Positions 3,795-60,045 of a stretch of DNA of 64,000 nucleotides are shown here, in pieces. Both the position numbers and the translations under genes were made by a program. The DNA is from Lunularia cruciata. Taxonomy: Eukaryota; Streptophyta; Marchantiopsida; Lunulariales; Lunulariaceae. A model generated the notes under the pieces. The model had not been told where the DNA came from, did not search any database, and saw only the letters and a program-made list of their open reading frames with translations. The stretch covers positions 6,974,744-7,038,743 of the forward strand of contig OX419759.1 of assembly GCA_948567375.1 (NCBI GenBank), in the 5' to 3' direction. Numbering within the stretch: the first letter of the stretch is position 1; each line of letters starts with the position of its first letter.

Positions 3795-3806
3795 ATTAAT
3801 CTCATC

Positions 3807-3857
3807 TTGATGGGGTCTTCCCATCCTTCTTTGTTTCATACGCACTCGCTTTTTCAC
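3807..3857 (+). mobile_element. 51-bp micro-insertion of the RLE LINE 3' end
   Basis: The insert begins TTGATGGGGTCTTCCCATCC and ends in a degenerate form of the family's terminus (CATACGCACTCGC plus a T-rich tail). It is flanked by a 12-bp duplication, ATTAATCTCATC at 3795-3806 and ATCAATCTCATC at 3858-3869, with one mismatch. It is therefore an extremely 5'-truncated retrotransposition event. It starts at the foot of the terminal hairpin, like the inserts at 40049 and 51883. Confidence 0.8.
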
Positions 3858-3869
3858 ATCAATCTCATC

Positions 3870-6800
3870 TGACTCTCCAAATTGGCCGGGACACGCTGAA
3901 GACACAACACTTCCCTAATGCAGCCAAAGCAAGAATCTTCTCCCCCCACCCAACAGCAACAAGAATATTCGAATTTACGTTTGCTGGTATTTGCACTATT
4001 ATGCTCTATTTCATTGCTGGTATAAAATTATCTCCTTGTTGTCGGGTAACTCTTGTATTTTACGGTAATTCTGTTTCAATTCCAGGTCATCTTGTATGCC
4101 TTGTGTCTATGTCTTCATACTTGATGTCTTCACCGTGTGACTTGAGTCACCTCGTGATTAACAAATTACAAGATAAATACAGAAATAAATGAGTAAAACC
4201 TCACTTCGTCTACAGATACTTGACGTTTGTTTGAATATATTTTAAACTTGTTGTTAAGCTTGTTTCCAAAGCTAAGAAGTTCAAACAAGGAATCTCAAAT
4301 AAATCTTCTTACTTTGCATCTTCTTATCTGGGCAGTACTTTAACTCTTTGTGCATTATTCTGGTAAGCCACCTAAATCCATGTAATGCATACGGTTTTCA
4401 CACATTTAGATTCGCACGTCAGTTACAACTTGGCGTTGATTAATCCTGTAGCTTAAAAATGTCACCAGTAATGCCCGGGGCCAAGAACAAAAGAAATAAG
4501 GAGCCCCTTTAAACCAATCATTCAATATCATAAACCAGTGATTGTACTAAAAAGCTACGATCTGAATCATAAATTGAGATACGATAAATTGGTGCAGTTC
4601 ACTTTATTTTTCAGAACTGAAATACTATGTTAATCTTGCTCTCTTACAATTGATCAGTCATTAAGTACTCTTAATTAATGGAATCAGGGCTGCCTCTCCA
4701 CCGTCCTACAAAGCTATCGACCTGGTCCTAAGGTGGGAGTTTCACGAAGTCCGTAATCGTAAGACCAAGCAAGCTAACGACTAGGATGTCATTCGCGGGG
4801 AATTTCGTTTTGAATCTGGAAGAAAGTTCATTCCAGAAGAGGATGTCCTCCGAACCAAGTAAACGAAAAATTCGTGCTCCTTCGTTGTGAAGACTCTCTT
4901 TCTGGAGTTATACGAACTAACAGCTTCTCGAAGCGCACACGAATTGGCTTGGCACCGCGGTGGTCGATCGTTTCTGTACAGTGGAGAATTTTGTCGATTG
5001 TCTTTCTGCGTGAATGTAGAGTGAGTGGACACGCTATGTTCATGTGCGCATTAGGAGTGCATGAAATAGGTGTTCCTGCTTTCCAAGGTTTCTTGTCGCG
5101 TTTTCTGATGATTTCAACTTGGTCTTTTCATGCACGTAGCATGAATTGGATTCAGTGTGGACGCTTGTTGCGAAACCTGTGTCAAGGCGTCTGGCTGAAG
5201 CTTTCAGCCGAAGAACTAGGAGGGTATATCGAGTGACTTGAGATTCAATCCTAGTTTCTATGTCATCAGGATCAGTCTCTCTTTCCTAGTCCCCTGCCGA
5301 TTAGAGTTTTGACACCTGAAAAGTGGTCCGATGGAACATTGACTCATTGAAGAAATACTGTATTCAATGAACTGTATTCCCCTGCGCCAAGTCATGGTGG
5401 CCAATTTCGGGTTTGTTTCGGTCTAGTTATCAAGGTCCCACCCGCTTTTTTGAAACAGATCGCCTTTGGCAATTATGTGGAAGGGTTATGAAAGTGAAAA
5501 CCATATCTTCTAGGCAGTTTCCGGAAGCGCATTGGGAAACAGCGAAGCTGTCCTTTAAGACACACATCAATAATGGACGAGGATACGATAAGCACAAGTT
5601 TGAAAGAAACGATTCCCTTAAACACACGCAGACTTGATACTTAACGTATCAATCTTAAGTTCGAATATTCCGCATACAGACTGGATACTTACCATACTTG
5701 ATACTTACCTAAACTCGAATAATCCACATACACACGCTGGATGCAGAGGCACCACACATTAAGTGCACCAACACTAGAAGAAGTCTGTTCTCTCATCTTC
5801 TATATACACCTCGAGATGATCTATCTCTAAGAGAAACGCGGATCGTCTTCTTGTTCGTCGTTCATGGATATACAAATTACTCACGTACTCTTCTGTGAGA
5901 ACGTTTCGGACGACATTCCGGGTTACATAGCGTGGACTGTGAAGTATGTTAGACTCACACAAACTGAACTAGTCTCAAATTGTCTTTAGCGACTTGATCT
6001 TTTCAACCCACCCTAAGACTCCGTGATGGTTGGGTTTAAATATTCTGATATCTGAGCTGCAACTCTCGTCCGCATACCCTTTAGAATGGACACCAAACAG
6101 AGTCCCTGAGATCGTTGACTAGACTGCATCAACTATGTCTTTTCAACGTGACATACTGAACCTAATCATTGAACACTGAAGTAATCAAGGTTCGCTCCTC
6201 GTTTCTGTCAGGGTGCGAACTCCATCGGCAAGGACCCGATCAGAGGTTACCCTTGGACAGATTCATGAATCGTGACGAGCGCAGTTGTGGTCTCCAGTAT
6301 ACTCTAGCACGACTTGCAATAGTAGACAGCAAATTAAGTCGGCAAAGGTTCCTAGCAAGAAAAGGATCGTCTTACATTACTAAGGATTTTGAACGAGGTA
6401 CTGTTTCTGTCAATACATGAGAAATTTGAGAATACTGTGCAATTTACAGAGGCGTGGGATATCCCATGGAAAAGGAACAGACAGATTTGGTTATTTAACT
6501 AAAGGAATCCTATCAATCAGTGACTCATTCTTCTTGAATACGAACACCAGAGTACTATGATTACAGATTTCTATCGAAACACGAAATTAGATGATTTTCA
6601 TTCATTACATGCCTAGCGAATGTGGCCGCAATAACGAGCATTGTCCTTCTTGTTTACTTAAATCTCTTCGCTCATGCATCTGATGAAAAAAATTGATACG
6701 TGTTCGATAGTGGCACAGCACCCTGCAGCCATTTGACATTTGGCAGTGTCTCATTTACCTAATTCTTAACCTGCTTCGTTCTTGTATTGACCCTCTCCCC

Positions 6801-11343: not shown

Positions 11344-11365
11344 CTTGTATACAGTGAATGAAAAA

Positions 11366-11453
11366 GGCGACCGCTTAGGAAAAAAGAAGGATGGGAAGAC
11401 CCCATCAAGCCATACAAGGGAGAGACAAAAAACGTAACATAGGGCTAAGCCCC
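11366..11453 (-). promoter_or_regulatory. LINE 3' UTR with two hairpins (RT recognition candidate)
   Basis: On the minus strand the stop codon lies in a stem-loop of the form GGGGC-TTA-GCCCC (11442-11453 here, with one pair lost). About 35 nt further comes GATGGG-GTCTT-CCCATC (11390-11406), then CCTAAGCGGTCGCC at the end. Both hairpins recur in other copies. In known LINEs the RT binds a structured 3' UTR to begin target-primed synthesis. That this is its role here is inference. Confidence 0.6.
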
Positions 11454-14400
11454 AATAGAGTCTGTATGAGAAATCTGCCCTACCGCACCTAAGATAGCCG
11501 AGCTATGCAAGTCGTACGGTCTACACACAACTGGAGTATCCGAAGAAACATCACCTAATGTGATTGCTCTCCTATGGATTGCACCAGTCACTGCCCTCTG
11601 TAAAGCAATGGACACACGCTGTCTAAAGTAAGCTACAAAGTATGAGAGTGAGAGTGGTACCCCCTGACGCCTAACATGATAAGCTCTCGTGCACTCCCTG
11701 ACAAATGTGTCAAATGCCGTGTCCATCGCTCCATATAACTCCAAGGCTAGAGGAACAAAGAGGTGACCTCGCTGCATGCCCCTATACTTGGAGACCTTGC
11801 GACCTGCTGCTGCACTCGCCGCCCATCCAGGGGGATGGGTAATCACTCCCTCCAAAACTGTATCTTGCGTAGGGTTCGTGACCACAACATCCGCTACTAT
11901 CACCTGATCATCTCGGACCAAGTATAAGTCTGCCTTGACACGTGTCGTCTGCAAAGCATACGAACGCTCCCTCCAAGCCATGTATCCACTCTCTCTGGCC
12001 ATAGCAAACACTATGTCTCTAATGGCATCATTGGTAGCTATCCTCTGTCCTCCAAAAGGACGCCATGTCATGTGGACCGCCGCTGCATCTAGTGTAGAAC
12101 CACACTCACAAGTGAGTAGTGAAGATGCAGATGGGTGGACCAAACCTAGGCGAAACCTCATCACTGTTGAGAAAGTAGTTGGTGCGAGTCTGAAAGCCCT
12201 AATGCATGGTCGAGCTAGGATCCAAGAGCCTGCACCCTTGCCAGAGCAAGAGCGTAGACGTGCTCTAGTAGCCTGAGGAATGGACGAGTCAACTAAGAGA
12301 GAATGTAGCGTATGCTCACACTGTCGCTCCATCAAGGAAGACTGTAGACCTCTTGTCCAATCTGACAATAGTGAAGCAAACGGTGGAAAACCCTCTTGTG
12401 CTTGTGGGGATAGACTATCTCTTGTCTACCACAATAACACCTGGAGAGAAAAGGATCCACCCTCCACCTCTGTCACATAAGTCTCCAAAACCGGCCTATC
12501 AGCAACCACAAAACGAGAGGAAAGTAGGGGTGCCGAGACAACCCAACTACCCAAAAATGCTATTGGTGCCATCTCCTCCATAGTAAGCAAGCCAACCCCA
12601 CCACATGAGATTGGTAGAGCCGTTTGTCTATGTGCCAAATCCCCTGTCACACACTCAAAAGTCCTTGGTCCAATAATATCACCAAAAACTCCCATAATCC
12701 TCCTATCAAATGCTCTCAGACGATAGGAAGGACGGTGAGGGGGGAACTATACAGATGAGGTAGGATGGTCGACGAGCAATACTGGAAGAGAGTATACCAA
12801 ATGCCACCTGCGGATCTCCTAGTAATGGAAGGTCATCCACATGGAGAACATCCTCTGCAAGGGCAGCATCCAATAAGCGTGTGACAAAATCCTCCGATCC
12901 TACTGGCACTCCAAGAACACGAAGTCCATCTGTGGATGGGATACACCCCTTTGGAAGCTCAAGATGGGGAGGGATACCTAAAGGGGACCATGCCCTATAC
13001 TTTGACACCTTGACTTTCAAGCCTACTAGATGTAGCTTGGTAGTCAAGTAGTCAAAGGCCTGCCTAATCTGATCTACAGGGCCTATGATGTGTGTATCAT
13101 CTGCCAAGAAGGGAAATACACAACTTGGCATGGCCAAAGTAGTAGATAGGAGAGCTCTAAAATGAGCCATGGCAAATAAGGCCCCCCCCCCAAAGGATCT
13201 CCCTAACGTGTACCAATAGCTGACTCCTAGACGGTGACTCCCTCCTGTGAACCACCATGCTGGTAGTAAAGGGAAGCAAAAGAGCCATAAAAAGACCGCA
13301 CAAAAGGAATGAGACTCGCCAAGGATCCACCAGCCCCCCTAAGCTCTCTAAAGATGGATGCACGTGAGACGCTATTAAAAGCGTTCTCAACATCCACCTA
13401 TAGGATGACCCACTCCGGATGGATATCTAGGAGTGCTCTAATGCCTAGAGATATAGCCTCATATCCTCCAAGTGTAGCTACTCCAAACTGATGTGGACTA
13501 AGGTGCTGTCAAAAGTGAGAACGATGTTGAAGGACAATGGTACGACTGACCAAACGCAAAAAGATCTCTCTAATAGTAATCAATCTAATGCCTCCCGTGT
13601 CCTTCTTGATCGCGAGAAATTGACTAGCACCTAAGACCCAACTAACAGACATAGGAATGTCTCCTCTCGCTACTGCTGCAGCCACCTAAAACAACTCGGT
13701 AAAACCACTAAAAGGATCATCTGCTTGGAAGCAATCTCTAAGGTGCTCATAAACCATCCCAGACAAGCCTCTTGAGGAAAAGCAAGGGGCAGTGCACAAT
13801 GCTTGTGCAAGTAGCGACCTATCAAGACATAAAGGCTGCTCAGGCTGATAATCTAAGACCTCTAGTGGTAGTCCCTCTACTGCTATAGGATGCAATGAGC
13901 ATAGTGAAGAGATGGTCTCATCAGTAGGACTCGCTATAGACAAAGGGTGTAGCGCTTGTGCTGCTCTACTAAACTCTCCCGCCTGACCCAATGTCCTACA
14001 TCGTCGTAATCGAGTGGAATCTATGGTATCCTGTGGCAATGCTTGCCTCCTAAATCGTGTAGCCCTAACAGACTCCTCCTGAAGGGCTGCCCAATCTCCC
14101 ACTCGGAATCGATGAAATCTAGCCGTCACCTCTCTATGCCCCGCACGTCCCCCTCTAGCATAACGAAGACACCATCAAGGGAGTAGGAGGAATAGGAACC
14201 ACGCTAACTCGTCCAAGGGATCACGTGCCAAACAATCCAGTGGTAGACAAAAAGCGTGTCTAGCCTCATCATGGAGTGTGCGGGGTAGCCTATGGAATAG
14301 ACGTGGACATGGAAAACTAGTCTCAAATAACGCCAAAATGCAACCCGCTTGAGAAGCTAACTACTCCCACGACTCAATCGGTATCCCTGGAACGATCAAC

Positions 14401-14672
14401 AAAGGTATAGAAGAAGCGTGCGTAATCTCGAGTGTCACTACTGTCAATGTGGTCGCTCGTCTCACGTGGGCATCCCAAGTGGTCCAATCATAGTCCTTGT
14501 GCATCCTTCCCACATGGGTCTTTACCCCTTGCAAGGTAAAGCGTCGGTGACACACCGGGCATGGTGTATCCCGACCCGCTCTATGCGACCCCACATGGGA
14601 AGGTGTAGCCATGGCTAGCACAAGAATAGGGATAGTAACACATGATACTCCTCCCCATATCTGCAAAACCAC
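11445..14672 (-). pseudogene. LINE polyprotein, copy A (C2H2 - RT - RLE), broken
   Basis: Domains in order on the minus strand: a C2H2 finger CPVC...H....H (Cys38, Cys41, His53, His58 counted from 14672; Met21 at 14612 is an alternative start); an RT amino-terminal region GLSGMVYEHLRDCF near 13750; RT motif A VDVENAF near 13385; motif B GDPLGG near 13195; motif C FLADDTHIIGP near 13105; then a 307-residue C-terminal block from 12368 to 11445. That block holds CEC...H and the nuclease residues KAD147, AD160 and KVSKY191-195. The last knuckle cysteine is lost (HMTWR where copies B and C have HMTRC). I infer about three frameshifts, one of them at the G-run of GDPLGG, plus several in-frame stops, many of them TAG in place of CAG. 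The function known for the family is target-primed reverse transcription. This copy cannot encode it. Confidence 0.88.
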
Positions 14673-15078
14673 AACCCCTCACATCCCAACTCACATAAGA
14701 AAACAATCTCTCCAAACCCTAAAATCTATAAACTCTCATAACTTTCAATTTCCATCTCCAAAATTTTCAAAAATTAAATTCTCATGAAACTTAATCATGA
14801 AAAACAAGGGATTAGAAATTAAAATTCCCAACCCATCACTCTCAACCCTAAAAAAGCTAAAAATCTTCATAACTTTCTACTCCATTCTCCATAGTCTTCA
14901 ATCTAGGTGCCAATGGAACCGAAATTGAAAAACAAAGAGAATCAACTATTCACTCAAATGCTACATGCTAGAGAGCACTCAGAAATTATCAAAATTGTCT
15001 CACGTCTCTCCCTCCTCTCTTGTCTCCACACTCTCCCGCAGCTCCCCGCAACTCCCCGCAGCTAGTCACCAGTCACCA
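14673..15078 (-). other. 5' leader of LINE copy A with internal imperfect repeat
   Basis: The leader is AT-rich and non-coding. Its distal end is C/T-rich on the plus strand. Two related blocks, 14714-14775 and 14844-14906, both contain CCCTAAAA, CTCATAACTTTC or TTCATAACTTTC, and TCCA-TCTCCA-like stretches. Copy B shares the same leader to near 19900. RLE LINEs often carry promoter or ribozyme activity in the leader; nothing here proves either. Confidence 0.6.
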
Positions 15079-16225: not shown

Positions 16226-19200
16226 TGAAAGGCGACCGCGTAGGAAAAAGAAAGGATGGGAAGACCCCATCAGGCCGTACAAGGGAGAGACAAAAAAAGG
16301 TAACATGGGGCTACGCCGCAATGGAATCTATATGAGAAATCTGCCCTACCGCACCTAAGATATCCGAGCTATGCAAGTCGTACGGTCTACACACAACTTG
16401 AGCATCCAAAGAAACATCACCTAATGTGATTGCTCTCCTATGGATTACACCAGCCACTACCCTCTATAGAGCAATGGACACACGCTGTCTAAAATATGCT
16501 ACAAAGTATGAGAGTGAGAGTGGTACCCCCTATGCCTAACATGATAAGCTCTTGTGCACTCCTTGACAAATGTGTCAAATGCCGTATCCATTGCTCCATA
16601 TTACTCCAAGGCTAGAGGAACAAAGAGGTGACCCCGCTGCATGCTCCTATACTTGGAGACCTTGCGACCTGCTGTTGCACTCGCCGCCCATCCAGGGGGA
16701 TGGGTAATCACTCCCTCCAAAACTGTATCCCGCATAGGGTCCGTAACCACGACATCCGCTACTGTCACCTGATCATCTCGGACCAAGTATAAGTTTGCCC
16801 TGACACGTGTCGTCTGCAAAGCATACAAACACTCCCTCCAAGCTAAGTATCCACTCTCTCTGGCCATAGCAAACACTATGTCTCTAATGGCATCATGGGT
16901 AGCTATCCTCTGCCCTCCAAAAGGACACCGTGTCATGTGGACCATTGCTGCATCTAGTGTAGAACCACACTCACAAGTGAGTAATGAAGATGCAGATGGG
17001 TGGACCAAACCTAGGTGAAACCTCATTGCTATAGAGAAAGTAGCGGGTGCAAGTTGGAAAGCCCTAATGCACGGTCGAGCTAGGATCCAAGAGCCTGTAT
17101 CCTTGCCGGAGCAAGAGCAAAGACGTACTTTAGTAACCTGAGGAATGGACGAGTTGACTAAGAGAGAATGTAGCGTATGCTCACACTGTCCCTCCATCAA
17201 GGAAGACTATAAACCTCTAGTCCAATCTGACAATAGTGAAGCAAAAGGTGGAAAATCCTCTCATGCTTGTGGGAATAGACTATCTCTCGTCTACCGCAAT
17301 GACACCTAGAGAGAAAAGGATCCTCTCTCCACCTTTGTCACATAAGTCTCCAAAATCGGCCTATCAGCAACCACAAAACAAGAGGAAAGTAGGGATGCCG
17401 AGACCAACTACCTAAAAACGCTATAGGTGCAATCTCCTCCATAGAAAGCAAGTCAACCCCATCATATGAGATCGGTAGAGCCGTCTACGTGCCAAATCCC
17501 CTATCACACACTCAAAAGTCCCTAGTCCAAATCACCAAAGACTCCCATAATCCTCCTATCAAATGTCGTGATAGGAAGGACGGTGATGGAGGAATGGTAC
17601 GGATGAGGTAGGATGGTTGACGAGCAATACTTGAAGAGAGTATACCAAATGCCACATGTGGATCTCCTAGTAATGGAAGGTCATCCACATGGAGAACATC
17701 CTCTGCAAGAGTAGCGTCTAAGAAGCGTGTGACAAAATCCTCCGATCCTACTAGCACTCCAAGAACATGAAGTCCATCTGTGGATGTGATACAACCCTTT
17801 GGAAGCTCAAGATGGAGAGGGATACCTAAAGGGGACCATGCCCTACACTTTGGCACCTTGACTCTCAAGCCTACTAGATGTAGCTTGGTAGTCAAGTAGT
17901 CAAAGGCCTACCTAATCTGATCTACAGTGCCTACGATGTGTGTATCATCTGCCAAGGAGGGAAATACACAACCTGGCATGGCCAAATTAGTAGATAAGAA
18001 AGCTCTAAAGAGAGCCATGGCAAATAAGGGCCCCCCCCCCCCCAAAGGATCTCCCTAACGTGTACCAACAATTGACTCCAAGATGGTGATTCCTTCCTAT
18101 GAACCACCATGCTGGTAGTAAAGGGAAGCCGGAGAGCCATAAAAAGACCGCACAAAAGGAATGAGACTCGCCAAGGATCCACCAGCCTCCCTAAGCTCTC
18201 TAAAGATGGATGCACATGAGACGCTATTAAAGCGTTCTCAACATCCACCTGTAGAATGATCCACTCCGGATGGATATCTAGGAGTGCTCTAATGCCTAGA
18301 GATATAGCCTCACATCCTCTCGGTGTAGCTACTCCAAATTGATGTGGACTAAGGTGCTATTGAAAGTGAGAATGATGTTGAAGGACAATGGTACGTCTGA
18401 CCAAACTCAAAAAGATCTCCCCAATAGCAATCCGTCTAATACCTCCCGTGTCCTTCCCCATTGCGAGAAGTCAACTAGCACCTAACACCCGACTAACAGA
18501 CATAGGAATGTCTCCTCTTGCTACTGCTGCAGCCACCTAAAACAACTCGATAAAACCACTAGAAGGATCATCTGCATGGAAGCAATCTCTAAGGTGCTCA
18601 TAAACCATCCTTGACAAGCCTCTTGAGGAAAGGCAAGGGGCGGTGCACAATGCTTGTGCAAATAGCGACCTACCAAAACATAAAGGTTGCTCAGGCTGAT
18701 AATCTAAGACCTCTAGTGGTAGTCCCTCTACTACTATAAGATGTGGTGAGCGTAGGGAAGAGATGGTCTCATCATTAGGACTCGCTATAGACAAAGGTGT
18801 AGCGCTCGTGTTGCTCTACTAAATTCTCTTGCTTGACCCAATGTCCTACATCGTCGTAATCGAGTGGAATCTGTGGTATCTTGTGGCAATGCTTGTCTCC
18901 TAAATTGTGTAGCCCTAACAAACTCTTGAAAGGCTGCCCAATCCCCCGCTTGGAATCGATGAAATCTAGCAGCCACCTCTCTATGCCCTGCACGTCCCCC
19001 TCTAGCATAACAAAGACACCATTGAGGGAGTAAGAGGAATATGAACCACGCTAACTCGTCCAAGGGATCACATGCCAAACGGTCTAATGGTAGGCAAAAA
19101 GCCTATCTAGCCTCATCATGGAGTGTGCGGGGTAGCCTATGGAATAGACGTGGACATGGAAAACTAGTCTCAAATAACCCCAAAATGCAACTTGCCTAAG

Positions 19201-19908
19201 AAGCTAACCACTCCCACGACTTGATCGGTATCCCTAGAACTATCAACGAAGATATAGAAGAAGCGTGCATAATCCAGAGTGTCACTGCTATCGATGTGGT
19301 CGCTCGTCTCACGTGGGCATCCCAAGTGGTCAATCATAGTCCTTGTGCATCCTTCCCACATGGATCTTTACCCCTTGTGAGGTAAAGCATCAGTGACACA
19401 CCAAGCATGGTGTATCCCCGACCCGCTCTAGGCGACCCTACATGGGAAGGTGTAGCCATGGCTAGCACAAGAATAATGATAGTAACACATGTTACTCCAC
19501 TCCATATTTGTAAAACCACAACCCCTCACATCCTAATTCACATAAAAAACAATCTCTCCAAACCCTAAAATCTATAAATTCTCATAACTTTCAATTTCTA
19601 TCTCCAAAATTTTCAAACTAAATTCTCATGAAACTTAATCATGAAAACCAAGAGATTGAAAATGAAAATCTCTAATCTATCACTCTCAATGTATAATGAT
19701 CACTCTAAACCTTAAAAAATCTAAATATCCTCATAATTTTCTACTCCATTCTCTATAGTCTTTAATCTAGGTGTCGATGAAACCAAAATTGAAAAATGAA
19801 ACAAATCTACTATTCAGTCGAATGCTACGCGCTAGAAAGCTCTAAAAAATTACAGATATTGTCTCACTATCTCTCCTTCCTCTCCTCTCTCTACACTCTC
19901 CCGCTGAG
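16226..19908 (-). mobile_element. Full-length RLE-type non-LTR retrotransposon, copy B
   Basis: The element is about 3.7 kb and is flanked by a perfect 14-bp duplication, CTTCTAAATATTAG, at 16212-16225 and 19909-19922. It is collinear with copy A from the leader to the 3' terminus (GGCGACCGCGTAGG on the plus strand at its 3' edge). Small differences are scattered throughout. The TSD differs from that of copy A, so the two neighbouring same-strand copies are separate insertions and not one duplicated segment. Confidence 0.9.
16311..19519 (-). pseudogene. LINE polyprotein, copy B (C2H2 - RT - RLE), broken
   Basis: The order is as in copy A. The finger region near 19440 is frameshifted before its histidines. 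The RT amino-terminal region reads LSRMVYEHLRDCF near 18600, and motif A reads LQVDVENA near 18240. Motif B, GDPLGG near 18050, is interrupted by a G-run of 13. Motif C lies near 17945. The C-terminal block (17200 down to 16311) keeps the complete knuckle CEC...H...C (HMTRC) and reads RANLYL where copy A reads KADLYL, so the first nuclease aspartate is changed to Asn; ADVVVTDP and KVSKY are kept. Frameshifts and in-frame TAG codons break the frame, three of the TAGs at the same Gln positions as in copy A. It is inactive as it stands. Confidence 0.85.
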
Positions 19909-27249: not shown

Positions 27250-27430
27250 GAAGAAAAAAGGCGACCGCGTAGGAAAAATGAAAGATAGGAAGACCCCATC
27301 AAGCCGTACAAGGGAGAGACAAAAAAGTAACATGGAGCTAAGCCCCAATAGAGTCTGTATGAGAAATCTGCCCTACCGCACCTAAGATATCCGAGCTATG
27401 CAAGTCGTACGGTCTACACACAACTGGAGC
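27250..27430 (-). mobile_element. 5'-truncated RLE LINE fragment, 181 bp
   Basis: This is the last 180 bp or so of the family, from the C-terminal codons (PYDLH region) through the 3' UTR, ending GGCGACCGCGTAGG on the plus strand. It is flanked by a perfect 22-bp target-site duplication at 27228-27249 and 27431-27452 (core AGTGCGATACCCGTT). The tail next to the terminus is a T-run with a little C on the minus strand. The perfect TSD suggests a fairly recent insertion. Confidence 0.93.
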
Positions 27431-30336: not shown

Positions 30337-30690
30337 CATTTGTTGACATATTTGTCAAGGAATGTATGAAAGTTATCATGTTAGACAAAAGAGGTACCAC
30401 TCTCGTACTTTGTAGTATATTTTAGTAGCGTGTGTGTCTGTCCGTTGCTGTACAAAGAACATAGACTAATACAATCCATTGGAGACAATCATATTCAATG
30501 ATGTTTCCTCAAATGCTCAATAAATAGTTAGGTACATTTGGATATATTAGAATATGTTAAATACAACAGGGTAGATTTTTGATATTGATATTATTGAGAC
30601 ATAGCCCCATTTTACCTCGTTTTGTCTCTTCCTTGCACTCATTTGGGCGGCTTGATGGGGACTTCCCATCGTGTTTGTTAAGCGGTCGCC
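30337..30690 (+). mobile_element. 5'-truncated RLE LINE fragment, about 350 bp
   Basis: It starts at ...CATTTGTTGACATATTTGTC, matching the C-terminal codons GMDTAFDTFV of the family, and runs through TTATCATGTTAGAC, GGTACCACTCTCG and the 3' UTR to AGCGGTCGCC. It is clearly more diverged than copies A and B and carries internal deletions. Short identical CCTAAAA at 30328-30334 and near 30702-30708 may be the remains of a TSD, but 7 bp is weak. Confidence 0.8.
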
Positions 30691-31079
30691 TCTTCAGAGA
30701 TCCTAAAACTGATCACTTTGTATCTCACTATCCTTACCAGTTCTATAATGTATTATTTCTGAATGACCCATAAGTCAATGTCTGTGAAGATATGCTTATA
30801 TCTTTGACAAAGATACTATTATTTTTCCACAAATTGAGTCTCTTCTAAAGCTTTGCCAAAAAGCAGAGTCCAGAATTACGACTCTTAAATTAGTATGAAG
30901 AAAAGGTATCATATTCTTCGGTTACGAATATCCTTTCTAGTTTTGTATATGACTCACCAGTATGGGATGTAGGACTAGACACATCTCTAGTTACGAAATG
31001 AGGAATTATTTGCAGAAACAACGGAAGAAATCTCAAGATCGACATTGACGCTAGACGTGAACGAACAATTTAAGAGCTG

Positions 31080-37860: not shown

Positions 37861-38850
37861 CAGTATCAATTACCATTGCAGTATCAAAGCGTCTCGTGCA
37901 GAAGCAATCTATGTCTCTTGTTCTACCCTTTAGTTCTCACGCCTCTCGGTACTCTGTTGTCGTTATATACACAAGATCCCAGGTCTTGTTCACAAGTTAA
38001 TCACCACAGTACTTCAAATCGGAAAGCAATATCAACAGAAAAAAGGCGACCATGTAAAACACATGAAGGATGGAAAGACCCCATCAAGACTGTACAAGAG
38101 AGAGAGACAAAAGAGTTAAAAAAGGACTAGGCCCCAATAGTATCAATATGAGAGATCTGCAGTTCGGCATCTTAGATATCTGAACTATGCAAGTCCTACG
38201 ATCTACAAATACTGGAGCATTTGATGAAGTATCACCTAGTGTGATTGTTATCCTATGGATTGCACCAACCAATGCTATGGACACACACTATCTAAGTATG
38301 TTACAAAAGATGAGAGTGAGAGTGGTAATCCATGGCATCTAATATGATAAGTTCTTGCACACTCCCTGACAAATGCATCGAATGCCATGTCCATTGCTTC
38401 ATATAACTCCAAGGTTAGAGGAACAAAGAGGTGACCTCTCTGTATACCCCTACACTTGGAGACTTTGCATGCTATTGCTTTGCTTGCCGCCCATCCCAGA
38501 GGATGAGTAATCACTGTCTCCAAAATTGCATCGAGTGTAAAATCTGTAACCACTACATTTTATATTGTCATTTGATCATCTTGGCCCAAGTAAAAATCTG
38601 CTTTGACACATGTCATCAGCCAAACATATGAATACTCTCTCCAAGCAAGGTATATAATGCCATAGCAAACATTATATCCCTGAATGATGGACCAAAAGCA
38701 ATATCAATTACCATTGCGATATGAAAACGAGTCGTTAAAAGACAATCTATGTCTCGTTATACCCTTTGGTTCTCTGTCCTCTCTGTACTCTGTTGTGGCG
38801 AGATACACACTTCCCAGGTCTTGCTCACAAGTTCATCACCATAACAGCGG
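37861..38850. repeat. Tandem duplication of about 166 bp split by a LINE
   Basis: The block 37861-38022 (CAGTATCAATTACCATTGC...) recurs at 38699-38850 (CAATATCAATTACCATTGC...), sharing CAATCTATGTCTC, TACTCTGTTGT and CCCAGGTCTTG. By eye the two are roughly 80% identical. If the LINE between them is removed they lie head to tail with a period of about 166 bp, so the duplication probably preceded the insertion. Confidence 0.75.
38036..38694 (-). mobile_element. 5'-truncated RLE LINE fragment, about 650 bp
   Basis: It covers the nuclease region to the 3' terminus. On the minus strand it reads GWAASKAIACKVSKCRGIQRG, then the FVRECARTYH and AIHRITITLGD segments. The 13-bp duplication AAAGCAATATCAA at 38023-38035 and 38695-38707 defines the insertion. 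The frame is broken and diverged from copies A and B. It lies at the junction of an older tandem repeat. Confidence 0.85.
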
Positions 38851-40030: not shown

Positions 40031-40048
40031 ATTTCACAACAATTTCAC

Positions 40049-40103
40049 GGCTTGATGGGGTCTTCCCATCCTTCGTGTTTTCTACGCTGTAGCCTTTCTC
40101 TCC
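40049..40103 (+). mobile_element. 55-bp micro-insertion of the RLE LINE 3' end
   Basis: The insert begins GGCTTGATGGGGTCTTCCC and ends TACGCTGTAGCC followed by a pyrimidine tail TTTCTCTCC. A perfect 18-bp duplication, ATTTCACAACAATTTCAC, lies at 40031-40048 and 40104-40121. The perfect duplication gives exact ends. It starts at the foot of the terminal hairpin. Confidence 0.92.
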
Positions 40104-40121
40104 ATTTCACAACAATTTCAC

Positions 40122-41607: not shown

Positions 41608-41744
41608 GACTGATCATTTTATAGGTAGTAGACTGCTTGTTTATAATACGTTTATTTGATTTATATTCCATAAGTTAGGAACGGAATATAAATCAAATAA
41701 ACGTATTATAAACAAGCAGTCTACTACCTATAAAATAATCAGTC
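41608..41744. repeat. Near-perfect 62-bp inverted repeat with 13-nt loop
   Basis: The left arm 41608-41669 and the right arm 41683-41744 pair over 62 bp with one mismatch, around the loop 41670-41682. Just outside the left arm, GGTAGTAGACTG occurs a second time (41601-41612 and 41623-41634). There is no coding capacity. It could be a recent inverted duplication, a foldback or MITE-like element, or a small-RNA hairpin. No flanking duplication was identified. Confidence 0.9.
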
Positions 41745-43383: not shown

Positions 43384-43540
43384 CAGACCATACGACTTGC
43401 ATAGCTCTATATATTAGATGCTGTAGAGTAAATTCCTCTAACGGATACTCTTGAGACTTAACCCCATTTTACACCCTATGTTTTTTCCTTGTATGGTTTG
43501 ATGACATCTTCCATCCTTCTTGGTATCACACACGGTCGCC
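43384..43540 (+). mobile_element. 5'-truncated RLE LINE fragment, about 160 bp
   Basis: It starts CAGACCATACGACTTGCATAG, as at the C-terminal codons of the family, passes TTAACCCCATTTTACACC and GGTTTGATGACATCTTCC, and ends CACACGGTCGCC. It is diverged, with the terminal hairpin weakened. No clear TSD was found. Confidence 0.8.
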
Positions 43541-44954
43541 TTCTTCTCAAATAAGATGTTCTTGTGTATGTTGTCGTAGATTATTCTTGTCTTGTTACAA
43601 GGGTTTTTCGGAATTATGAAATTCTTTAAGATTGTCTTGTACTGCTTCTTTATTTCTCCACCATTTGATTACTTGTCAACATCACCAATGGCTCGATTTG
43701 TAGATCTGGAGATACTGAATCATTTGAGACCCCAAGCTCCCACATGCTGGTCCTCTGTCATGCCCCGGCTTGGGTCCAGATCTCTAGGTTCGATTGACCA
43801 AAGCTAGTTCACTTATTAGTGTTAATTGGCTCTCTCTTTACCTTAGCTGATCTGTGGTTCTTAATTCAAGACTAATTTACATTTGAGACTGCAGTGGGTT
43901 GAGCACCCATGCAAACCCATACTTGGAATTAGTGCCATTATGTATATAAAAAACTGTTATTTTCACCACTTCTTTTACTATTTCCACCACAACACTTAAA
44001 TTAATCGACCCTAAAGTAGTCTCGGCATGAGGGTTTGAAGTTAAATGTGGTGGAAGTAATTAAAAAATGTGATGGAAATAAATAAATAAATAATATATAT
44101 CCCTTTCCCTTGAGAAAGCATCGATTTTATTGATACTTTTTTCCTCAAGTGTTAGAAACTCGTTGAAGTTCTTGTCCTTTCTCTCAACTAAGAATCATAG
44201 ACATTCCGGTTATCGCAACTAAGGACAGTATACATTCTTCCAAGCAGTTTTTTCTTTCCACCGCCAACGGACAATACATTGTATAGCGAATTGCACAATT
44301 AAGCAAGGGGTTTGGGTAATAATTTAAACTCTTTTCTTTTAAACCTTCCAATCATTTCGTAAACCCCTATAACCTCTCATGCTACTCTTTACATGCCGCA
44401 AAGTCGTCTTTTCAACCTCAAGTATTTTCTGTAACTTATAGAGCTCTATTATCTTGCAAACCGTTTATGAAGCACATCCGTCAACCATGCACTTACCATA
44501 CCTCAACTGATGCAGGAAATTGTAATATTCCGAAGATAGGAGACATGAAGAAAAACACACCAGAGAAACACACACTTTTACGTTCAAACTCCGATGCCCA
44601 AAAGGAGCACCCTCTTTTTATTATATAGGCAAAGCGGATTTCCTCCAATGAAGTTCCACCATAGGATTAGGTACATAGATAGGTGATATGTCATCAAGCT
44701 CCACCCTTAGATTACTTACTTGGATGGGTGACATGTCGGTCCTGGTCCTATTTGGTTGGTCAAATAAGTATTGACCGGAAGGAATCTTTTAGTGAATCTT
44801 CTTGTAGGAATCTCATAATCATGTGGGTGAGGTACCGTTGGAAAGCTCTCGACAAGACAAAGCAAGGGGGAGGGAAGGCCAACCTTTCCTTTGTTTAAGA
44901 GGGTGGTATCTGCACATTTTCGAGGTCTAATTCATTTGTTTAGGCCTCCAAAAT

Positions 44955-45288: not shown

Positions 45289-45445
45289 AGCTTCAAACCA
45301 TTGAGGTAATGGCGATTAGTTACTTAATAAAACAGATGAGTAAAATAATAGAACTGTGACCATTTCTCAACCCAATGATCCCTATTTCAAGGTTCACCAA
45401 TCCAATACCTGTTGTACTCTTTAGGAAACGCTGTTTAAAAAGATA

Positions 45446-47387
45446 GATTGCTATTTGCACAAGCATTGTGCACTGCCTCTCGCTTTTCCTCAGGAGGCTT
45501 GTCAGGGATGGTTTATGAGCACCTTAGAGATTGCTTCCAGGTAGATGATCCTTCTAGTGGTTTTACCGAGTTGTTTCAGGTGGTTGCAGTAGTAGCAAGA
45601 GGGAGACATTCCTATGTTTGTTAGTCGGGTGTTAGGTGCTAGTCAATTTCTCGCGATGGAGAAGGACACAGGAGGCATTAGACCGATTGCTATTGGAGGG
45701 AACTTTTTGCGTTTGGTCAGTTGTACCATTGTCCTTTAGCATCATTCTCACTTTTAACAACACCTTAGTCCACATCAGTTTGGAGTAGCTACTACTTTGG
45801 TCATATCAGGTTGTGTATTTCCCTCCTTGGTAGATGATACACACATCGTAGGCCCTATAGATCAGATTAGGTAGGCCTCTGACTACTTGACTACCGAGCT
45901 ACAACTAGTAGGCTTGAGAGTCAAGGTGTCAAAGTGTAGGGCATGGTCCCCTTTAGGTATCCCTTCCCACCTTGAGCTTCCAAAGGGGTGTATCACATCC
46001 ATAGATGGACTTTGTGTTCTTGGAGTGCTAGTAGGATCGGAGGATTTTGTCACACGCTTCTTAGACGCTACCTTTGCAGAGGATGTTCTCCATGTGGATG
46101 ACCTTCCATTACTAGGAGATCCACAGGTGGCATTTGGTATACTCTCTTCCAATATTACTCGTTGACCATCCTACCTCATCTGTACAGTTTCTCCCTCACC
46201 GTCCTTCCTATCACATCTGAGAGCATTTGATAGGAGGATTATGGGAGTCTTTGGTGATATTATTGGACCAGGAACCTTTGAGTGTGTGACAAGTGATTTG
46301 GCACATAGACAGACTGCTTTGCTGATCTCATGTGATGGGGTTGGCTTGCTTTTTATGGAGGAGACAACACCTATAGCGTTTATGGGTAGTTGGGCTTTCT
46401 CGGGGCAGACGAGAGATAGTCTATCCCCACAAGCACGAGAGGATTTACCACCGTTTGCTTCACTATTGTCAGATTGGACTAGAGGTTTACAATCTTCCTT
46501 GATGGAGCGACAATGTGAGCATGTGCTACATTCTCTCTTAGTAGACTCGTCCATTCCTCAAGCTACTAGAGCACGCTACGCTCTTGCTCCGGCAAGGGTG
46601 TAGGCTCTTGGATCCTAGCTTGACCGTGCATTAGGGCTTTCCGACTCGCACCAACTACTTTCTCTACAACGATGAGGTTTCGCCTAGGTTTGGTCCACCC
46701 ATATGCATCTTCATTACTCACTTGTGAGTGTGGTTCTACACTAGATGCAGCAGCGGTCCACATGACACGATGTCCTTTTGAAGGACAGAGGATAGCTACC
46801 CATGATGCCATTAGAGACATAGTGTTTGCTATGGCACGAGAGAGTGGATACTTGGCTTGGAGGGAGCATTGGTATGCCTTGCAGACAACATGTGTCTAGG
46901 CAGACTTATACTTGGTCCGAGATGATCAGGTGACAGTAGCAGAGGTCGTGGTTATGGACCGTACGCGGGATACAGTTTTGGAGGGAGTGATTACCCATCC
47001 CCTTGGATGGGCGACGAGTGCAGCAGTAGGTCGCAAGGTCTTCAAGTATAGGGGCATGCAACGAGGTCACCTCTTTGTTCCTCTAGCCTTGGAGTCATAT
47101 GGAGCGATGGATATGGCATTTGACACATTTGTTAGGGAGTGCACAAGAGCTTATCATGTTAAGCGTCAGGGGTACCACTCTCACTCTCATACTTTGTAGC
47201 ATATTTTAGACAGCGTGTGTCCATTTCTCTACAGAGTGCAGTGGCTGGTGCTATCCATAAGAGAGCAATCACATTAGGTGATGTTTCTTCAGATGCTCCA
47301 GTTTTGTGTAGACCATATGACTTGCATAGCTCGGATATCTTAGGTGCGGTAGGGCATATTTCTCCTATAGACTCTATTGGGGCTTAG
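45446..47387 (+). pseudogene. LINE polyprotein, copy C, partial
   Basis: Segments in order: LSGMVYEHLRDCFQ near 45500; a jump near 45800 from FGVAT to the motif C region, where the text reads SLVDDTH, so RT motifs A and B are missing; TKLHLVGL-like DYLTTELQLVGLRVKVSK from 45880; MGVFGDIIGP from 46241; then the knuckle CEC...HMTRC near 46730 and the nuclease ADLYLVRDD at 46900, VAEVVV (Asp replaced by Glu) and KVFKY near 47040. The stop TAG lies at 47385-47387 inside the hairpin loop. Several stops and frame changes are present. It is useful as an independent witness: it keeps CAG where A and B have TAG at two glutamine codons. Confidence 0.85.
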
Positions 47388-47391
47388 CCCC
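47379..47391 (+). promoter_or_regulatory. Stop-codon hairpin of LINE copy C
   Basis: A perfect GGGGC-TTA-GCCCC stem-loop in which the reading-frame stop TAG spans the loop. The same stem is present with one changed pair in copy A and in the fragment at 27250. Confidence 0.6.
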
Positions 47392-47485
47392 ATGTTACCT
47401 TTTTTGTCTCTCCCTTGTATGGCTTGATGGGATCTTCCCTTCCTTCGTTTTTCCTACAGGTTTGCATTTTTCCGATTTAAAAAGA

Positions 47486-48404: not shown

Positions 48405-48416
48405 ACTCTAAAGATG

Positions 48417-48445
48417 TTTGCTACGCGGTCGCCTTTTCCCCTTCC
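48417..48445 (+). mobile_element. 29-bp micro-insertion of the RLE LINE terminus
   Basis: The insert reads TTTGCTACGCGGTCGCC followed by the pyrimidine tail TTTTCCCCTTCC. The first 17 nt match the family's extreme 3' end. A perfect 12-bp duplication, ACTCTAAAGATG, lies at 48405-48416 and 48446-48457. It is the shortest insertion of the family in the window. Confidence 0.85.
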
Positions 48446-48504
48446 ACTCTAAAGATGAGACTGCCTAACATTTCTTTACAGGGACAATAGTAGAGTTATT
48501 TTAC

Positions 48505-48521
48505 GCGTCGCGAAGCGACGC
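48505..48521. repeat. CpG-rich 7-bp palindrome
   Basis: GCGTCGC-GAA-GCGACGC, a perfect inverted repeat in an otherwise AT-rich setting. Role unknown. Confidence 0.7.
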
Positions 48522-48573
48522 ATAAAGGCTGAAATTTATTCGAAGAGGAGAAAAATTCATGGAGAACAATGAT

Positions 48574-48767
48574 TACTAATGCATTAGGAGATTACAACGT
48601 CACTTGAGAGAACTTGACTTCCATACGGACCAAAACTTGTTCTCCTACTAGGGTTGAAATGCATTTGTTTTACTAATGCATTAGGAGATTACAACGTCAC
48701 TTGAGAGAACTTGACTTCCATACGGACCAAAACTTGTTCTCCTACTAGGGTTGAAATGCATTTTTGT
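48574..48767. repeat. Near-perfect 97-bp tandem duplication
   Basis: Units 48574-48670 and 48671-48767 are identical apart from the last few bases (TGTTT versus TTGTC). The very high identity implies a recent event. Non-coding. Confidence 0.95.
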
Positions 48768-48945: not shown

Positions 48946-49102
48946 ACTCACTTGCATAGGTCGGATAGCTCGAATATCTCAGATCTGCAGGACAGATTTC
49001 TCATACCGATGCTGCTGGGATTTAGGCTCATTGTACCTCTTGTGTTTTATCCTTATTCGGCTAGATGGGGTCTTCCCGTTCTTCTCATTTCCCTACACGC
49101 CT
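48946..49102 (+). mobile_element. 5'-truncated, diverged RLE LINE fragment
   Basis: It matches the family from ACTTGCATAG...CTCGAATATCT through ACAGATTTCTCATA to GGCTAGATGGGGTCTTCCC and CCCTACACGCC. It is old, with small indels. No convincing TSD. Confidence 0.7.
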
Positions 49103-51760: not shown

Positions 51761-51794
51761 CCTTTCCTTAGGTTGCGGGTCGCCTTTCCTTAGG
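51761..51794. repeat. 12-bp direct repeat flanking 10 nt
   Basis: CCTTTCCTTAGG at 51761-51772 and 51783-51794 flank TTGCGGGTCG. With the following CC the middle resembles the LINE terminus (GCGGTCGCC), so it may be a minimal insertion, but the match is too short to be sure. Immediately downstream, GGCGTAGGGC and GCCCTACTACGCC form a small inverted pair. Confidence 0.35.
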
Positions 51795-51882
51795 GTTCTC
51801 CTTAGGCGTAGGGCAAAGCCCTACTACGCCTCAGGAAAGCTCCGTAACTAACCAATGGTGTGATATATAGTTAAGGTCTATT

Positions 51883-51935
51883 GAAGTAGAAGGCGACCGC
51901 GTAGAGAAAACGAAGGATGGGAAGACCCCATCAAG
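51883..51935 (-). mobile_element. 53-bp micro-insertion of the RLE LINE 3' end
   Basis: On the minus strand it reads CTTGATGGGGTCTTCCC... and ends TACGCGGTCGCC with a pyrimidine tail TTCTACTTC. A 31-bp duplication with one mismatch lies at 51852-51882 and 51936-51966 (core ATATATAGTTAAGGTCTATT). The 5' junction shares GG microhomology with the target. This is the longest TSD in the window. Confidence 0.92.
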
Positions 51936-51999
51936 CCAATGGTGTAATATATAGTTAAGGTCTATTTAGGTTTAGGCATTTGAAGTTGGGATGTTTGGA

Positions 52000-57862: not shown

Positions 57863-60045
57863 AATGGAGTATTCTGAGAAGTAGCATCATTGTTCTCCTA
57901 TGATTGATGCTCTATAAATTGCATCAAAGTGTGTTTTATGAAGAGCAATAGACACCCATTATCTAAAATAAATCACAAGATAAGAAACTAAATTACAAAA
58001 TAAGAAAGTGAAATTGGTACTCTTTGTCATTTCGTATGCAGGTTCTTGTTTAGTTCTCCATAAATACACCAGATCCATATCCATAGCTCGATATATAACT
58101 CTAAACCTAGAGAAACAAAGAGTTGACCTCAATATATACCATATACTTTGAGATCTTGATTATTACCATGCCAGTATATACTTGGAAACTTTGAATTGTT
58201 ACCTCCCTTACCGGTCCTCTTGTTGCACATTTAGGAAGATAGATAATCATGTTCTCCAAAATTGTATTGTGTGTTAATTTGTAACCATAACATTTACTAT
58301 TTTAATTTTATCATCTGGACCATATAGTGGTCTACCATAACTTATATTATCTACAATATATATACTAATGTTCCCTCTAAGTATATACACTCTCTTGTGC
58401 TATCACAAATACTATGTCTTTGATAGCATCATGGGTAACTATCCTTTGTACTCCAAAAGAGCAATGAGTTATATCCACCTTTGTTATATCTAAGGTAGCA
58501 TCACACTCATAATTGAGTAATGAAAATTATAGGTCTACCAAATCTAGCCAGAACTTTCTTATTGTAGATAAAGTAGCCTATTTGAGTCAAAATGTCTCTA
58601 ATACAAGGTTAAGCTAGAGTCCAAGAGCCTCCACCTTTAGCCAAACTAAAGCAAAAGCATGCCAAATCGCAAGAAAGAATGGATAAGTATACTTGAAGAG
58701 AATATAAAGGTTATTGAAAATATCAATATATGGAACAAGATTCAATTAGGTCCAATTGAAAAGCAAAGAGGCAAAGGATAGAAGAACATCTAGTACTTGA
58801 AAGGACAAACTACCTCTCTTCTACTACAATAGTCCTCGGAGAGTAAGGTATCCCTTATTTACCTCCATCGCATATGTTTGTAAGTTTAGCTTATCCAAGT
58901 ACCACAAAACTAGAGAAAAGCAATGAAATCAAAAGTGCTCAACTACTAAAAAGCATTATATGTGTCATCTACTCCACCTAAAACTGGTAAAGATGTCTAC
59001 CCACATACTAAGTCTTCTTCACTCACACAAAAGTCCTTGGTTTAATGATATCACAAGAGACTTCCACGATCCTCTCATAATAGACTCTCAAACATGATAA
59101 AAAGTTCAAAGAAGGACAAAGAGAACAAAGGAGGATGGTTGATTGACAACTATACAAAATATCAATAAAGGATTCCCTAGTAAATGATCTATCAAAAACA
59201 TAATCTCTTCTAGTGCAATTTTAAGTAGCATAGGACAGAATTCTCATACCTTACATGTATCCCAAGAATACATAAGCCATTTGTAAATGTAATATACACT
59301 TTAAGAAACTAGAGGTGAGAGGATTACAATGCACCACACATTTTCTCAATAGTAAAATGGTTAAAGACCAGCTTAATCTAGTCTATAAGGACTCTTTTAT
59401 ATATATATATATATATATATATCAAGGAGAGAAAAACAAAACCTAACATGGCCAAAATAGTAGAAAAAAGAGCAAAATATATGCTATGACAAAAATAAAT
59501 TCCCCTAAGGGATCTCCTTATGATGTATCTGCAACTTATTGAAGAGTAGTGACTTTCTCGGGTAAAAGCTATACTAGTAGTAAAGAAAAGAAGGTGAACC
59601 ATAGAAGAACCACCATAAGATAGGAAAAATACTTGCTAAGAATCCACTCTTTAAGGATGGATCCAGATCCACTTTTTACTACTTGTTCTCAACATCCACA
59701 TGTAAAACAACACAATCTAGATGGATATCTAAGAGTGCTCTAACGCAAAAAGATACAGTCTCACAATGAACTATTATAGCAGCCTTAACCAATATAAATT
59801 AAGGTGTTGCTAAAATGAGTATGATATTAAAATTTTATCATATGATTAATAATGCACAATAAGACTTCTCCTATAATAATCTAATACACTCTACATCCTT
59901 CTCAAGAAGTTAACCACCACCTAGCTTCTTATTCACTTTTGTAGGAATCTCTACTTGCCTCTCCTTGAGCCACATGGACCAATTCCATGAACCTACTTAA
60001 GTGATATCTACTTAGTTGAAATCTCAAAGATGCTTAAAAAGTCTT
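57863..60045 (-). mobile_element. Old decayed RLE LINE copy M
   Basis: Collinear matches to copies A and B run from the C-terminal codons (TCTCCTATGATTGATGC near 57896) through the knuckle region (ATCACACTCATAATTGAG near 58500), the segment before the nuclease (CAAAAGTCCTTGG near 59023), and RT motif A (ATCTAGATGGATATCTAAG near 59715), to the RT amino-terminal region near 60040. Identity is much lower than between A and B. The sequence is strongly shifted to A and T, with many small indels and all frames closed. Neither the 3' UTR nor the leader was recognised. This copy is the oldest of the family here. Confidence 0.8.
59398..59422. repeat. (TA)n microsatellite
   Basis: About 25 bp of alternating TA, lying inside old LINE copy M. 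Confidence 0.95.

Follow-up and report, generated by a model that had tools for sequence, protein, structure and literature searches.

Short insertions of a LINE 3' end with starts clustered near the foot of a hairpin in a 64-kb window of the Lunularia cruciata genome

In the 64-kb window (the whole stretch of DNA that was analysed), we recognised 12 copies of one LINE family that retain its 3' end, two of them near full length, seven truncated with a defined 5' end and three old with an undefined one (Table 1). The copies have a common 3' end with variable 5' truncation, and nine of the 12 are bounded by target-site duplications (TSDs) of 10, 12, 12, 12, 13, 14, 18, 22 and 31 bp (none is certain in the three old copies), both of which are features of non-LTR elements. 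The 3' tails are T/pyrimidine runs, not poly(A). The two near-full-length copies share a strand, are separated by about 1.1 kb and are 90-93% alike in most blocks and 82% alike in one block near the 5' end; the points at which their homology stops are close to each other, differing by about 35 nt. An old relic of the same family, without a recognised 3' end, occupies 58080-59765 on the minus strand. The flanks of the copy at 38036-38694 carry a 30-bp repeat (93% alike) outside both TSD copies and in non-colinear order, which probably predates the LINE insertion. Other features of the window are an auxin gene of the SAUR type (Pfam PF02519, E 3.6e-28), which points to a land plant as host, a near-perfect inverted repeat at 41608-41744 (62-nt arms, 98% complementary, 13-nt spacer) and, at 48573-48763, a tandem duplication of a 97-bp unit whose 100% matches indicate that it is either recent or an assembly effect.

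Table 1. Copies of the LINE family in the window, with their duplications and one hairpin
Feature	Coordinates	Strand	Remarks
Micro-insertion, 51 bp	3808-3858	+	TSD 3796-3807 / 3859-3870, 12 bp, 1 mismatch
Near-full-length LINE, ~3.7 kb	11356-15078	-	12-bp TSD ACTGTATACAAG
Near-full-length LINE, ~3.7 kb	16226-19908	-	14-bp TSD CTAATATTTAGAAG
5'-truncated LINE, 181 bp	27250-27430	-	22-bp exact TSD
Old diverged LINE 3' copy, 5' end undefined	30343-30694	+	
5'-truncated LINE, ~0.66 kb	38036-38694	-	13-bp TSD TTGATATTGCTTT, the second-ranked repeat, picked for its position at the end of the LINE homology
TSD of the 40049 insert, left copy, 18 bp	40031-40048	+	
Micro-insertion, 55 bp	40049-40103	+	18-bp exact TSD ATTTCACAACAATTTCAC
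Hairpin of the 40049 insert	40054-40070	+	GATGGG-GTCTT-CCCATC, -8.0 kcal/mol as an isolated 17-mer
TSD of the 40049 insert, right copy, 18 bp	40104-40121	+	
Old diverged LINE 3' copy, 5' end undefined	43385-43546	+	
5'-truncated LINE, ~2.0 kb	45444-47475	+	10-bp TSD TTTAAAAAGA, weak alone (E 0.42, third-ranked), picked for its position at the end of the LINE homology
Micro-insertion, 29 bp, without hairpin	48417-48445	+	TSD 48405-48416 / 48446-48457, 12 bp exact
Old diverged LINE 3' copy, 5' end undefined	48965-49098	+	
Micro-insertion, 53 bp	51883-51935	-	TSD 51852-51882 / 51936-51966, 31 bp, 1 mismatch

Motifs in its broken ORFs suggest that the element is probably an R2-type LINE, that is, one with a restriction-like endonuclease (RLE). 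The ORFs contain a C2H2 finger, the RT-like box LADDTHI, a CCHC-like knuckle and then, toward the C-terminus, ADLYLVRDDQV.VADV and KVSKY, and in copy 11356-15078 the finger, LADDTHI, D-X12-D and KVSKY can all be read. The N-terminal finger, a feature of RLE elements, is CPVCHRRFTLQGVKTHVGRMH in copy 11356, and copy 16226 has it at the corresponding position, interrupted by a stop; its Pfam zf-C2H2_4 score (E 0.0097) was below the cut-off. LADDTHI and its context were recognised by eye, and Pfam gave no RT match, including with a composite of pieces from two LINE copies as the query. The catalytic residues of the RLE are spaced as D-X12-14-D/E. In six frames of the window the strict joint pattern of D-X12-D and KX2KY occurs once, and with N allowed for D it occurs twice, in copies 11356 and 16226, an agreement at the level of motifs in which the P of PD is replaced by A; KX2KY, reported to contain the catalytic lysine of the restriction-like endonuclease in LINEs (PMC5678591), is not specific alone, as it occurs in other frames too. 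Pieces of the RLE motif are also present in copy 45444, with a stop just before them. The knuckle is spaced CX1CX9HX3C, compared with the published CX2-3CX7-8HX4C (PMC5678591). The PGPD motif, placed by the same source in the RT0 loop of RLE LINEs, was not found by eye in the ORF pieces, where the nearest sequence is RGLSGMVYEHL and the broken state of the pieces makes for a weak test. Pfam and PDB sequence searches with the LINE protein returned no specific match and none to solved R2 structures, a PDB profile search was unspecific (best E 0.28), AlphaFold yielded low-quality models (mean pLDDT of 38 and 40), and comparisons of the protein pieces with viral contigs (two queries) and genome contigs (one query) confirmed no relative.

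Three of the truncated copies, of 51, 55 and 53 bp, are the extreme 3' end of this one ~3.7 kb LINE. The original prediction had described them as inserts of 51-55 bp, each with its own TSD of 12, 18 or 31 bp, and a base-by-base re-check of the boundaries of five inserts agreed with this, the 12- and 31-bp duplications having one mismatch each; the coordinates 40049-40103 and 51883-51935 were retained, whereas the insert placed at 3807 had been off by one and in fact spans 3808-3858. The TSD copies of the latter, TTAATCTCATCT and TCAATCTCATCT, are exact over their final 10 bases. The insert at 40049-40103 reads GGCTT, hairpin, linker, GTAGCC and pyrimidine tail. Common descent of the three inserts is ruled out by their flanks and TSDs, which differ between them, and the sequences support the view that each is an independent retroinsertion of the 3' end of one LINE.

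A fourth micro-insertion, at 48417-48445, is new to this study and was recovered twice, by a scan for the 3' terminus and, independently, among direct repeats listed for lying near each other. Its TSD is ACTCTAAAGATG, its 5' start lies about 7 nt downstream (3') of the hairpin position, and at 29 bp it is a very small recognisable product of target-primed reverse transcription (TPRT). The scan took GGTCGCC with at most one mismatch and inserts of less than 300 bp, giving 18 sites, of which three had a TSD score of at least 9 against about 1.0 expected (87 of 1500 control sites); the same three scored at least 12, with about 0.24 expected (20 of 1500). These were the known copies at 27250 and 51883 together with 48417-48445, and there was no other new insert, in a scan that by its terminus and length criteria misses nine of the 11 other copies and recovers two.

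Several small repeats lie beside the inserts. A short GC-rich palindrome at 48500-48530 (ACGCGTCGC-GAA-GCGACGCA) is about 60 bp from the 48417 insert, and a palindromic repeat at 51783-51850, around AGGCGTAGGGC-AAA-GCCCTACTACGCCT, adjoins the insert at 51883. At 51761-51794, TTGCGGGTCG(CC) is flanked by two 12-bp repeats CCTTTCCTTAGG and is similar to GCGGTCGCC; this is possibly a 10-12 bp insert of the LINE tail or a piece of a foldback repeat. We set aside the candidate insert of 10-12 bp at 51773-51782, as its 12-bp repeat sits among other CCTTAGG repeats.

The hairpin marks the 3' end of the family. Its 17-mer, GATGGGGTCTTCCCATC, occurs 10 times in the window with at most 3 mismatches, against 0.10 expected and with none of 100 shuffles reaching 10, and each of the 10 overlaps a region that BLAST aligned with the 3' end of the one LINE family; BLAST located two further LINE 3' ends, at 43385-43546 and 48417-48437. 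Across the 11 of the 12 copies that could be counted, the 48417 insert being without a hairpin, the hairpin is less variable than the linker, with departures from the majority at 13/187 and 40/183 positions, respectively (Fisher 4.6e-5, an optimistic value as the copies are related to each other). The eight LINE copies alone gave 13/136 versus 32/132 (P 0.0017), with 42/239 in the 30 nt upstream, and the three micro-insertions 0/51 versus 5/51 (P 0.056). Covariation was rejected as proof of the hairpin, as no pair of the hairpin or of the outer pairs changed on both sides, and shuffled 3' letters paired equally well in 500 of 500 controls. Fold z-scores were -2.86 for the 40049 insert and -2.41 for the 3808 insert and were not exceptional for the 51883 insert (-1.26), the 48417 insert (+1.48) or two longer LINE 3' ends (-0.62 and 0.00). 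In the computed fold of the 40049 insert, and likewise in that of the majority module, the initial GGC pairs with the terminal GCC; these outer pairs do not form when the 51883 and 3808 inserts are folded as cut, the two being without the GG or GGC. An exact 21-mer search of viral contigs and a search for similar 21-mers in genome contigs gave no match, the three stretches matched by the exact 17-mer in viral contigs have flanks unlike the LINE and were rejected as relatives, and the 14-base hairpin core was not found in print in the literature searched.

With 5' microhomology allowed for, the insert at 40049 starts 7 to 5 nt before the first hairpin base, that at 51883 5 to 3 nt and that at 3808 3 to 1 nt before it, so that the three starts lie 1-7 nt upstream of the hairpin and span 2-6 nt. 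A 2-nt microhomology to the target can be read by eye at each of the three 5' junctions, the one at 40049 only if the source carried AC before GG; the random expectation of at least 2 nt is 0.16 per junction.

We put the chances at about even that the three inserts are 5'-truncated TPRT products whose favoured end is the upstream edge of a 3' RNA module recognised by the RT. The putative module, of about 45 nt, would comprise the GATGGG-GTCTT-CCCATC hairpin, a variable linker, the terminal GGTCGCC and then a U/pyrimidine-rich tail, and its upstream edge, the GGC that is able to pair with the terminal GCC, would be the point at which the template that is copied preferentially ends. Most likely, the RT would take apart the structure by which it recognises its RNA in the course of copying it and, its hold lost, let go of the template. 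The short cDNA would then be joined to the target, possibly aided by the 2-nt microhomology; a template trimmed beforehand from its 5' end to the protein-protected module would yield the same product and is counted within this explanation. We infer that the RT recognises the hairpin, that release follows its copying and that the enzyme is R2-like. Simple structural stalling of an RT is expected before a stem is copied, not after, and loss of the protein-RNA contact is therefore the more probable reason for a stop at the 5' foot. The earlier suggestion that the RT halts just after copying the hairpin is still live as a release step. Stringent-type LINEs are described as requiring a 3' stem-loop (PMC5135761), and the R2Bm protein as binding a core of about 40 nt of its 3'UTR, a 43-nt tag being sufficient for TPRT (PMC10499050). 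The size of the module is close to those of the three inserts, which fits either release of the RT on clearing the structure or copying of trimmed RNA. Truncated LINE inserts are reported often to carry 5' microhomology (PMC4245944), although R2-mediated insertions, against this, are reported to rely on it minimally (PMC11331408). By analogy, the U6-L2 chimeras of the platypus, which contain a short L2 piece (PMC4476161), are consistent with an RT that leaves its LINE template soon after the tail.

The serious rival to a preferred truncation end is chance combined with ascertainment: truncation would be strongly biased to short products, the conspicuous hairpin-bearing inserts would be the ones noticed, and their starts would coincide accidentally, which we regard as a distinct if minority possibility. 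The start point is common to only three of the seven truncated copies with a defined 5' end; the distance between 5' junction and terminal GGTCGCC is 42-48 nt in these three and about 17, 170, 648 and 2022 nt in the other four, a scatter that speaks for chance. The 29-bp insert without the hairpin indicates that truncation is not confined to one point, and that it went unnoticed in the original prediction, which had all the inserts truncated at the hairpin foot, is an instance of this very bias; what stands of that claim is the cluster of three. On the other side, the scan, independent of the hairpin, gave only one additional micro-insertion from its 18 sites, at a recovery of two of 11 known copies. 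When truncation points of seven copies were drawn log-uniformly over 17-3650 nt, three fell within 2, 3 or 5 nt of each other in 0.5%, 1.1% and 2.5% of draws, respectively, and with 10 copies in the same type of simulation in 2.1%, 3.4% and 7.1%. Across all eight nulls and the three widths, the coincidence arose in 0.2% to 7.6% of draws depending on the null, and it stayed below 5% in all eight nulls at widths of 2 and 3 nt and in five of the eight at 5 nt. As the simulated widths were compared by hand with the observed span of 2-6 nt and the test was chosen post hoc, the clustering of three starts at the hairpin foot in this one window is suggestive, short of proof, and of marginal significance.

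The remaining alternatives differ in how the template would come to end at this point. Trimming, the sub-case in which LINE RNA is degraded 5'->3' up to a bound, protected module and the remainder of about 50 nt is copied to its end, appears somewhat doubtful as the specific route. It agrees with the sufficiency of the 43-nt R2 tag as a TPRT template (PMC10499050), with the suggestion that degradation of the template from its 5' end limits R2-mediated insertion (PMC11331408) and with the coincidence of the start with a possible GGC/GCC closing helix, but the starts differ by 2-6 nt and each can be read with a 2-nt microhomology, which suits an interrupted cDNA better. If trimming were true, a discrete small-RNA 3' fragment would start at GGCTTGATGG. 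A physical stall of the RT as it meets the hairpin, which can act beside the other processes, is improbable: the 29-bp insert at 48417 stops some 7 nt short of the hairpin's 3' foot, a position at which such a stall could occur, but a single insert is no pattern, and the three clustered inserts hold the whole hairpin, which a stall leaves unexplained. Least probable is a SINE-like unit, in which the 3' end would give rise to a short RNA of its own, about 50 nt long and mobilised in trans. The three inserts are alike in length (51, 53 and 55 bp) and end 3' in T/pyrimidine runs, as some SINEs do. However, the window has no Rfam match at the gathering threshold and no tRNA match, no Pol III A/B boxes were seen by eye, the linkers differ among the inserts so that no single master sequence is evident, and the fourth insert is of another length (29 bp). 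An autonomous 50-nt SINE is therefore unlikely, and the short stable RNA or SINE-like module that had been put forward for these inserts is not borne out.

Of the parts of the preferred reading, truncation of inserts at the 5' end, microhomology at their junctions and hairpins near the 3' end have all been described before. For a hotspot or checkpoint of 5' truncation at a LINE 3' hairpin, no report was found by title or by the start of the abstract among the papers listed from literature of partial coverage. More tentatively, the 3' recognition module of the RT may be a discrete quantum of retroposition in stringent LINEs, with clearing of the module acting as a checkpoint comparable to promoter escape; failure would scatter 'footprint' inserts of about 50 bp with full TSDs, the smallest LINE-derived mobile units, and a second stop would lie just before the hairpin. 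If a genome-wide peak of truncation exists at the hairpin foot, LINE 5' truncation would be more than random loss of processivity, since a definite checkpoint early in copying would be linked to recognition of the 3' RNA. The RNA module bound by the RT of a stringent LINE could then be read from the fossil record that genomes preserve, and some insertions of 30-55 bp with long TSDs, easily overlooked in repeat annotation, would be LINE products. The LINEs of flowering plants are reported to belong almost entirely to the L1 clade, RTE being present in several species (PMC3747384), and a dispersed RLE-type LINE in a land plant would in itself merit confirmation.

Compared with known systems, the element resembles R2, Utopia and other RLE LINEs in its N-terminal C2H2 finger, RT-like box, CCHC-like knuckle and C-terminal D-X12-D plus KX2KY, and by analogy with R2Bm its RNA could be recognised through a short module at the 3' end. 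It differs from them in its CCHC spacing, in that PGPD was not seen in its ORF pieces and in giving no sequence match to solved R2 structures, as well as in being dispersed, with TSDs that range from 10 to 31 bp. Site specificity is described for most RLE LINEs (PMC5678591; PMC4640811), though the title of one paper names non-site-specific R2-like elements (PMC7650587). A possibly conserved hairpin near the 3' end is a likeness to the tails of stringent LINEs and SINEs (UnaL2, ZfL2, SART1 and the plant L1-clade tail of ~50 nt). Plant L1 and SINE tails are described as sharing about 50 nt with a hairpin whose loop contains UCU (PMC3747384), and the 5-nt loop here has UCU too, whereas the stem is followed by CTTC here and by CGAG there (PMC3747384). 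Unlike in the stringent systems, what is inserted here is just the tail, with no SINE body attached, and the protein has RLE-like motifs. In mammalian tailless retropseudogenes the ends of retroinserts likewise follow RNA structure, but their hotspots, which are explained by internal priming, are 3' ends located in single-stranded stretches (PMC4476161, PMC5322556), and the clustered ends here are 5' ends. With ordinary 5'-truncated LINE copies the micro-insertions have in common their TSDs, their 5' truncation and a possible 2-nt microhomology at the 5' junction; they stand apart in their extreme shortness (29-55 bp) and in the three starts at nearly one position.
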